Below, piece after piece: positions 8,043-9,645 of a DNA stretch of 64,000 bases (position 1 is its first letter; the number at the start of each line of letters is the position of its first letter). The translations under genes and the position numbers were made by a program. Where the stretch lies: NCBI RefSeq assembly GCF_900166665.1, contig NZ_LT800494.1, forward strand, positions 2,855,049 through 2,919,048, in the 5' to 3' direction. Under the pieces are notes generated by a model. That model worked only from the letters and a program-made list of their open reading frames with translations. It did not search any database and was not told where the DNA came from. This DNA is from Cytobacillus gottheilii. GTDB taxonomy: Bacteria > Bacillota > Bacilli > Bacillales > Cytobacillaceae.

Positions 8043-8594
8043 TTAATTCACTAAACGTACATCTTCAATCGGCCAATAAATGACACTTGCTTTTCCAAGT
8101 ACTTCTTCCATTGGCACTGCACCAATATGTCTGCTGTCTTTGCTGAATCTGCGGTTATCACCCATAACAAATAAATGCCCTTCCGGTACGGTGGTCTCAC
8201 CGATTTTATCTTCAAGGGTAAACGGCTCTGTTAAAGGACCATCGATAACCTGTGACTTGAATTCGTCCAAATACGGCTCCTCATAGGCTTTGCCGTTCAC
8301 ATATAGGATATCATCCCTATACTCTACCGTGTCGCCTGGCAGACCAATCACGCGTTTAATATAGTCTTTATTTTCCGGTGCATGAAAAACAATAATATCA
8401 AAGCGATCAGGTTCACCAACTGTATAGCTGAGTTTATTGACGATCATCCGATCCTGATCCTGCAAAGTCGGCCTCATAGATAAACCATCCACTACGATGG
8501 GGGCAAATAAAAAATAGCGGATTACCGCCGCTAAAACAACCGCAATTAATAAAGCCTTCGTCCATTCCCATAATTCATTTTTCTTTTTCGCCAT
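8043..8594 (-). CDS. lepB: Type I signal peptidase
   Basis: Membrane-bound serine protease that removes signal peptides from exported proteins. The 183-residue protein has one N-terminal membrane segment (about residues 13-32). The catalytic serine is in SMRPTL and the catalytic lysine in YIKRVIGLPGD, followed by the family box VMGDNR near residue 147. The open frame extends 30 codons upstream, but MAKKKNELWEW is the plausible start, with GGTGGGAG just before it. It lies between rbgA and rplS, a place where several Bacillaceae carry a signal peptidase gene; B. subtilis does not. Confidence 0.93.
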   Translation of the reverse strand: MAKKKNELWEWTKALLIAVVLAAVIRYFLFAPIVVDGLSMRPTLQDQDRMIVNKLSYTVGEPDRFDIIVFHAPENKDYIKRVIGLPGDTVEYRDDILYVNGKAYEEPYLDEFKSQVIDGPLTEPFTLEDKIGETTVPEGHLFVMGDNRRFSKDSRHIGAVPMEEVLGKASVIYWPIEDVRLVN

Positions 8595-8733
8595 ACTCCC
8601 ACCAGCTTTCAAAAAAATTCTGCTAAAAATAAGTTCAACAAACTTCCTCAAACTTATTGTACAACTGTTTCTCCACATACACACGATGGGAAGCTCTATT
8701 TTTTATTATTTAACATTTATGTAATAATATCAA

Positions 8734-9132
8734 GAAAAGCGGAAGTGGCTTGCTCAGCCCCGACAAGCTTAAGACGAGCTGGCTGAGAGGTTGTTCTTTA
8801 ACCTCTTAGACAGATTGACTTAAGACCTCGAGGGGCTAGCCACTGCAGCTGGATCAAAGAAAAGCGGAGGGCGTTTGCTCAGGGACGACAAGCTTAAGGC
8901 AAGATGGCGTAAAGGTTGTTCTTTAACCTTTAGGACAGATTGACTTAAGACCTCGAGTCCCTAACGCCTGCAGCTGGATCATAGAAAAGCGGAAGTGGCT
9001 TGCCCAGCCCCGACAAGCTTAAGACGAGCCTGCTGAGAGGTTGTTCTTTAACCTCTTAGACGGATTGGCTTAAGACCTCGAGGGGCTAGCCACTGCAGCT
9101 GGATCATAGAAAAGCGGAAGGCGTTTGCTCAG
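8734..9132. repeat. Tandem array of a 125-bp structured repeat (three full units and one partial)
   Basis: Units begin at 8734, 8859, 8984 and 9109, an exact 125-bp period (122-bp unit plus a three-base spacer AAA or ATA). Each unit starts GAAAAGCGG and ends GCAGCTGGATC. Inside are three nested inverted repeats: outer AGTGGCT/AGCCACT, next AGCCCC/GGGGCT, and inner AGAGGTT/AACCTCT around the loop GTTCTTT, with CTTAAG on both sides between them. In unit 2 the arms change together to GGGCGTT/AACGCCT, AGGGAC/GTCCCT and AAAGGTT/AACCTTT. The fourth unit stops after about 24 bp. No open frame is credible. Strand and function are unknown. Confidence 0.95.
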
Positions 9133-9154
9133 TCAAACGATTAAGTTTTTCTAT

Positions 9155-9186
9155 TGAAAAAGGAGCTTGATGAACAAGCTCCTTTA
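9155..9186 (-). terminator. Terminator after rplS
   Basis: Minus-strand stem AAAGGAGCTTG / CAAGCTCCTTT with a five-base loop and a T run, immediately past the rplS stop. It closes the transcript before the repeat array. Confidence 0.9.
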
Positions 9187-9197
9187 GCGTTTTAACA

Positions 9198-9542
9198 TTA
9201 TCGAATTTCTTTAATACGAGCTTTTTTACCGCGAAGGTTACGCAAGTAGTAAAGCTTAGCACGGCGAACTTTACCGCGACGGATCACTTCAAGCTTCGCG
9301 ATCTTTGGTGTATGAACAGGGAATGTACGCTCAACGCCTACACCATAAGAGATCTTACGAACTGTGAAAGTTTCACTGATTCCGCCACCACGACGCTTAA
9401 TCACAACACCTTCGTATACCTGAACACGCTCACGAGTACCCTCAACAATACTTACGTGTACACGTACAGTATCACCAGGACGGAACGCAGGAAGGTCAGA
9501 ACGAAGTTGTTCTTTTGTGATTTCTTCGATTAATTTTTGCAT
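9198..9542 (-). CDS. rplS: 50S ribosomal protein L19
   Basis: Ribosomal protein at the interface of the 30S and 50S subunits. The 114-residue sequence contains the family blocks [11 protein letters not shown] near residue 22, [19 protein letters not shown] near 45 and RAKLYYLR near 96. The frame could begin three codons earlier at a TTG, but the ATG of [12 protein letters not shown] is the normal start and has GAGGAG nine bases upstream. It has its own promoter and a structured leader, and ends in a strong terminator, so it can be expressed apart from trmD. Confidence 0.98.
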
Positions 9543-9645
9543 CGTTTTCAACTCCTCTCGAACAGACGCTCATGCACAACATTTCTATTTGCAGCGGAAC
9601 ATCGTTATAAGACCTCTGCTGAAACTTGTTCAGCCTAAGTCACAA
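9543..9645 (-). promoter_or_regulatory. Structured 5' leader of rplS (possible L19 leader)
   Basis: The roughly 100-base untranslated leader between the promoter and rplS can fold near its 5' end: GCTGAA / TTCAGC with a five-base loop, enclosed by GACTT / AGGTC (9611-9641). Ribosomal-protein leaders upstream of L19 genes are known in low-GC Gram-positives, and this has the right position. I did not compare it with the published model, so the assignment is tentative. Confidence 0.45.

Follow-up and report, generated by a model that had tools for sequence, protein, structure and literature searches.

The window, a 64,000-nt stretch of the Cytobacillus gottheilii genome, carries a tandem array at positions 8734-9132 between two genes on the minus strand. 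The array contains three 123-nt units at exact 125-bp steps, bearing out the 125-bp tandem repeat proposed by an earlier sequence-only reading, followed by a 24-nt 5' piece. The features of the locus are listed here, with helices P1 and P2 and covariance model R1 as described in the next section.

8043-8594, minus strand: lepB-like signal peptidase gene (open reading frame [ORF]; start chosen at MAKKKNELW)
8705-8733, minus strand: promoter-like site TTGATA, 17-nt spacer, AATAAT; presumed lepB promoter (consensus scan only)
8734-8856, plus strand: unit 1, type A; P1 AGTGGCT/AGCCACT, P2 AGCCCC/GGGGCT; model R1 score, 142 bits
8859-8981, plus strand: unit 2, type B; P1 GGGCGTT/AACGCCT, P2 AGGGAC/GTCCCT; model R1 score, 129.7 bits
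8984-9106, plus strand: unit 3, type A; model R1 score, 136.2 bits
9109-9132, plus strand: B-type 5' piece of a further unit (read from sequence)
9160-9184, no strand assigned: hairpin between the array and rplS, with a T run after it on the minus strand; presumed rplS terminator (read from sequence)
9198-9551, minus strand: rplS, ribosomal protein L19 (ORF; L19 leader upstream)

We take the L19 gene to be rplS from its protein sequence, supported by a match to the L19 leader RNA (RF00556) at 9563-9605 on the minus strand upstream of it; the lepB name and start are likewise presumed. No gene-like ORF covers the array, in agreement with the earlier view that it encodes no protein, and a 52-amino-acid ORF at 9104-9262 on the minus strand touches only its last bases. 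The promoter-like site abuts the 5' end of unit 1. At its other end the array faces the hairpin at 9160-9184, which recurs after rplS in congeners and was not reported by the terminator scan of the window; the scan gave a terminator-like match to a small hairpin at 9122-9139, formed by the last bases of the 24-nt piece and the following flank. A consensus scan found no plus-strand promoter-like site in the window, and the genes on both sides run opposite to the array; both points count against the mobile-like reading set out below.

In 150-nt frames, copies 2 and 3 are 81% and 95% identical to copy 1, and the minimum free energies of the 125-nt units 1, 2, and 3 are -55.4, -47.4, and -54.8 kcal/mol. 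The paired stem changes reported between units 1 and 3 and unit 2 are all present, the first pair of the outer stem of unit 2 being a G-T wobble. The two unit types do alternate, as A-B-A plus a B-type piece, but alternation alone does not demonstrate selection for unlike neighbors. Such selection finds no support as the cause of the A/B pattern in the C. gottheilii genome, where the stem-sequence difference between neighbors, 0.41, compares with 0.378 (standard deviation [SD], 0.043) after shuffling and is reached by 1142 of 5000 shuffles.

None of 4227 Rfam 15 families matches the array at the gathering threshold, and the only match in the window is the L19 leader. A permissive search of 8600-9250 gave four weak matches, all below their gathering scores, and at element positions of the other loci scanned Rfam 15 yields nothing besides Bacillaceae-1 modules. 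The sequence-only reading had left room for an already described RNA family; no Rfam family matches the unit itself.

Fold and folded strand

Covariance model R1, built from 40 diverse units, describes helices P0 (5-7/115-117), P1 (11-17/105-111), P2 (23-28/99-104), P3 (35-40/86-91), and P4, and then an apical P5 around the loop GTTCTTT. The nested helices seen at first are real, but their number was put too low at three. The element ends are GAAAAGCG and AGCTRGACA, closed by the short P0. P1 and P2 vary in sequence and keep their pairing, P3-P5 make up an exchangeable outer arm, and the internal loop GACAAG/ACCTCGA is highly conserved, with tandem G.A pairs.

Among the 40 units, 94.2% of cells pair and 27 of the 38 pairs have changed on both sides; the covariation score is 0.442 compared to 0.170 (SD, 0.009) for shuffles and at most 0.130 for slid structures. 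The significance check suggested with the original observation was run with a simulated phylogenetic null, in which a tree was fitted to 125 units no more than 88% identical and 60 alignments were simulated. The ten best column pairs of these 125 units, out of all pairs at least 4 apart, are model pairs. Five model pairs lie above every simulated value, and nine of 38 exceed the 95% family-wise level, all of them in P1, P2, and P4. The element shows covariation beyond phylogeny, as structured RNAs do.

A larger set of 346 distinct units was obtained from 478 profile hits by dropping 66 with more than 12 gaps and 66 duplicates. P1, P2, and P3 are Watson-Crick paired in 95 to 97% of cells, P4 in 80%, and P5 in 78%, with many G-U pairs in addition in both P4 and P5; conservation of P3 and part of the loop is inflated, because some loci were found by a pattern fixing those parts. 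These copies keep their base pairing, the point on which the earlier reading was to be checked, and the claim that paired substitutions maintain the folded form now extends to many copies and to other families. Of the mismatched positions, 45.81, 49.77, and 41.85 have high covariation ranks as well, and at 41.85 A.G (174 of 346) and G.A (77 of 346) exchange. Position 29.98 is G.A in 343 of 346 units and 30.97 is A.G in 337 of 346, counts inflated because the pattern that found some of the loci contains this loop.

The folded form had been proposed to be either RNA or a DNA cruciform. On the plus strand, the 346 units have 760 G-U and 116 A-C combinations, and 380 and 108 without the two most wobble-rich pairs. 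C-to-T and G-to-A changes should fall equally on both arms, so this imbalance indicates selection on one folded strand. The folded strand thus stands, and the cruciform is disfavored, since G-T on one of its strands is A-C on the other. One strand folds, as RNA or as single-stranded DNA, two forms that the ratio does not separate. In a dispersed repeat, then, the G-U/A-C ratio can distinguish a folded strand from a cruciform.

Copy number and turnover

The C. gottheilii genome contains 131 R1 model matches, compared to 66 found by blastn. The 129 matches on contig C4 form 52 clusters; two matches on contig C3 were left out, as they repeat C4:27887-28135. Repeated stretches in this genome (G000:C3:34031-34279 and C4:27887-28135; L017/L018; L012/L225) are probably assembly redundancy, one with an N at its break, which fits a contamination of 5.36%.

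R1 matches occur in 57 of 60 relatives (58 of 61 genomes with C. gottheilii) in a search that scored at most 58 candidates per genome under strict filters; blastn alone finds 48 of 61. Fuller scoring gave 9 to 114 matches in each of ten chosen genomes of other families, and 60 genomes sampled from elsewhere in the phylum had no match. A pattern scan of named genomes found at least 117 stretches, 100 of which, among those listed, were taken into the R1 model search. Genera among the matches listed include Rossellomorea, Cytobacillus, Metabacillus, Siminovitchia, Neobacillus, Peribacillus, Gottfriedia, Jeotgalibacillus, Halobacillus, and others. Among Bacillus-like bacteria, the repeat family is very common. 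Two copies (L170 and L189) lie in records titled Pseudomonas sp. ISL-84, a title that may be wrong or a sample that may be mixed; the other names among the matches listed are Bacillus-like only. Blastn detected no phage or plasmid carriage, with no match of the array among 72,556 plasmid records, and the sole exact-pattern match among contigs listed as viral is L292 (IMGVR_UViG_3300017655_000192).

The gap after rplS was compared in 30 of 36 genomes of the genus, C. gottheilii included. Nine genomes have a sense unit between rplS and its terminator, two of these with a Bacillaceae-1 module, and nine others have a plain empty site; antisense copies or remnants lie beyond the rplS terminator in several genomes, the window among them. 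A single unit separates L235 from L237, whose flanks are 97.8% identical, and where the window has three units the nearest relative (G033) has a 28-nt piece only. One locus holds 6, 2, 1, and 1 units in four genomes, L179 and L118 hold 2 and 3, and L141 and L192, with flanks 99.7% identical, hold 4 and 6 units that are ordered differently. Occupied and empty sites thus exist in close relatives, as in mobile elements, and may reflect gain or loss. Of the nine occupied rplS loci, eight have essentially the same interior (L253 has another), so that presence and absence there could stem from one old insertion followed by several precise losses, a point against the mobile-like reading. A GAAAAG-like sequence, a candidate target-site duplication, flanks the rplS-site unit on both sides, although it also belongs to the element itself and to the A-rich tract of the terminator.

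Array statistics were computed on 226 distinct arrays, de-duplicated only when identical. At 22 end positions, neighboring units differ by 3.8% in C. gottheilii and 4.2% in other genomes, compared to 14.7% and 15.9% between arrays, and interiors differ by 18.5% and 20.3% between neighbors and by 22.6% and 33.7% between arrays. Stems are identical in 31% (C. gottheilii) and 33% (others) of neighbors, rising to 73% and 56% for units two steps apart. The ends thus belong to the locus, interiors are swapped, and copying of A-B dimers is frequent. In 112 of 211 readable arrays, the last unit is followed by a GAAAAG-like 5' piece.

Siting and candidate explanations

With about even confidence, we read the array as one local grouping of an element of ~123 nt that is high-copy, non-autonomous, and mobile-like and whose folded strand is presumably recognized by a protein. 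The plus strand forms one long interrupted hairpin; the folded strand, most likely RNA and otherwise single-stranded DNA, would be the recognized form; a protein would bind it at the loop and the ends and mobilize or process the element; and array size would then change by recombination between shared ends. The fold and the turnover are demonstrated; transcription, the protein partner, and the mechanism of mobility are what we infer here. The reading draws on the covariation, the G-U excess, the 131 matches in 52 clusters, the presence and absence of units, the ends shared within arrays, the terminators at 3' ends, and the sense copies at rRNA operons. Both early suggestions, a structured RNA and a non-autonomous mobile element, find support and may describe a single entity, and the sequence probably represents a mobile or processed RNA element instead of filler with no meaning.

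Known partner proteins give no support to this reading. Y1_Tnp (PF01797) has no match in 11 genomes of the genus with at least 54 scored R1 matches, which does not fit a REP/RAYT system, and RVT_1 (PF00078) has none in C. gottheilii or in 8 other genomes of the genus in which at least 53 R1 matches were scored, which does not fit a retroelement. Six of these genomes have neither domain. A Y1 transposase and a reverse transcriptase were thus rejected as universally required partners, and the missing matches count against the mobile-like reading. The nearest relative has 29 RVT_1 matches, at 28 or more loci, mostly identical group-II-intron-like ORFs; C. gottheilii has 0.

Siting was examined through the nearest predicted ORF on each side for the 51 C. 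gottheilii clusters with one in reach. The nearest upstream ORF runs toward the element in 18 and away from it in 33 of 51, an antisense excess that also counts against the mobile-like reading; 10 of the 18 same-sense upstream ORFs stop 1 to 5 nt before the element (predicted stops). In other genomes, with rplS loci left out, a simple finder puts a terminator no more than 150 nt from the 3' end in 58 of 167 arrays and at such a distance from the 5' end in 8 of 168. The corresponding counts in C. gottheilii are 10 and 3 of 47, and random windows contain a terminator in 72 of 1492 cases in sense and 49 of 1492 in antisense. The Fisher test gives P = 8.5e-13 for the other genomes, a value too optimistic with related loci among the 167, and P = 0.07 for C. 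gottheilii, a weak bias that by itself we count against the mobile-like reading. Overall, the 3' end tends to face terminators. Sense copies are found at rRNA operons in two distant genomes (5 of 18 loci scanned), just upstream of 16S (L300, L310, and L320) or 4 nt past 23S and before 5S (L311 and L321). Of the 52 C. gottheilii clusters, 36 are oriented against replication (P = 0.008), assuming an origin at the contig start.

Two candidate end features were rejected. By eye, some single copies share a conserved 3' tail following GGACA, but a permissive motif for it occurs in 53 of 226 cases compared to 45 in 5' flanks, and 86 non-redundant 3' tails show no clear conservation past the first two bases. 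DnaA boxes at the ends were too few, with 3 perfect boxes in ~45 kb of flanks compared to 20 in 917 kb; these three lie in the 3' flanks of L115 and L129 and near L119.

A possible, though less probable, explanation is an RNA module useful to its host in cis, acting in 3'-end protection, processing, or control of transcript ends, and spread by helping the host. It would account for the 3' ends that face terminators, the copies that start 1 to 5 nt past the predicted stop of a same-sense gene, and the sense copies around 16S and 23S, but it sits poorly with the mixed orientation to neighboring genes and with sites that differ between close species. We think it unlikely that the element is a folded single-stranded DNA recombination site. 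Integron attC sites act as a folded single strand with free but paired stems, and the present unit may work like them by analogy, with P1 and P2 free yet paired, conserved unpaired bases including the loop, ends tied to the locus, interiors exchanged, and arrays shuffled at 99.7% flank identity; however, no gene cassettes were seen with the element, and sense copies at rRNA operons fit an RNA at least as well. Mutational bookkeeping, in which template switching at palindromes keeps the arms complementary with no selection for the fold, could produce the blockwise changes of both P1/P2 arms between types A and B, but it is very improbable, as it leaves unexplained the strand bias of the wobbles, the A.G/G.A exchange at 41.85, and the loop common to other families. 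For the mobile-like reading as for its alternatives, close relatives offer presence/absence, copy-number, and stem-swap variants, so that the role of the fold in movement, processing, or transcript ends is directly testable.

Modularity and known repeats

By kind, the element is a high-copy structured intergenic repeat, with unusual modularity; its nearest candidates were compared by description. The bcr1-bcr18 repeats of the Bacillus cereus group are mobile-like, interspersed intergenic repeats of 100 to 400 bp, some with more than 100 copies, some with conserved structure and about half in transcripts; they are described as confined to the B. cereus group and linked to a TTTAT motif (PMC6542083, PMC3446304). 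Unlike them as described, the element has ends GAAAAG...GGACAA, no conserved tail, and, by base composition, no TTTAT motif in the 209 5' flanks or the 86 3' tails examined. Bhal-1 of B. halodurans (74 bp, 36 copies), from a 2008 set of stem-loop families that are repeated, intergenic, and predicted to share a structure, is close in size to the short copies described below (PMC2267715). STAXI also consists of structured units in tandem, considered to be either RNA or folded single-stranded DNA, but its units are pseudoknots near genes of DNA-handling proteins (PMC2864571), in contrast to the nested hairpins dispersed over the genome here. Literature searches found no description of the element; most subscription journals fall outside their scope, so its unpublished status is unproven. 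Papers containing one element sequence word look unrelated by their titles and abstract beginnings. A structured repeat with tens to more than 100 matches in many Bacillaceae-like genomes is missing from Rfam 15.

In other families, the ends, P1, and P2 are recognizable, as is the internal loop in most of these families, while the P3-P5 arm differs and stays paired. Among 45 distinct units in a model-fitted alignment, 91.9% of cells are paired and covariation is 0.824 compared to 0.200 for shuffles; two of five measures are not clearly apart from shuffles (both-side changes, 26/500; further pair types, 217/500). The C. gottheilii genome also has eight short copies of 63 to 69 nt, and in seven of the eight, as displayed, the outer part is kept and the P3-P5 arm is mostly or fully missing. 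At one locus of another genome (G056), a second unit type with a different internal loop is interspersed among the canonical type.

Bacillaceae-1 (RF01690) resembles the element in being structured, high-copy, and found in Bacillaceae, and differs as a 67-nt two-hairpin module; the window array does not match it, and its matches are modules in or beside other copies. By coordinates, all 24 Bacillaceae-1 matches in C. gottheilii are inside or directly beside elements, so that in this genome a curated family is found only in or next to the element. In 24 other genomes, taken at one locus each (one misplaced by a contig end), an element 5' end lies within 70 nt upstream in 16, a 3' end within 130 nt downstream in 9, and both in 8. 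Bacillaceae-1 also occurs apart from the element. What sets L240 apart from L239 at the rplS locus is a Bacillaceae-1 module behind the 5' arm of P1.

These observations allow a broader reading, which we advance as speculative and consider rather doubtful as a whole: a modular mobile RNA system of Bacillales with a fixed core (ends, P1/P2, and the tandem-GA loop) and pluggable arms or modules, including Bacillaceae-1, that would grow in a CRISPR-like manner and insert upstream of terminators through a protein reading the folded strand. If growth were CRISPR-like, a locus would keep its own end sequence and added units would bring different folded interiors.

Eight Bacillaceae-1-bearing loci (L348, L349, L352, L358, L359, L362, L364, and L368) seem to be nested composites, in which a second unit start seems to lie inside or behind the arm. 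A 4.6-kb array with a 312-bp period (L232:3319-7934; C4:356318-360933) has Bacillaceae-1, with 14 matches, alternating with units.
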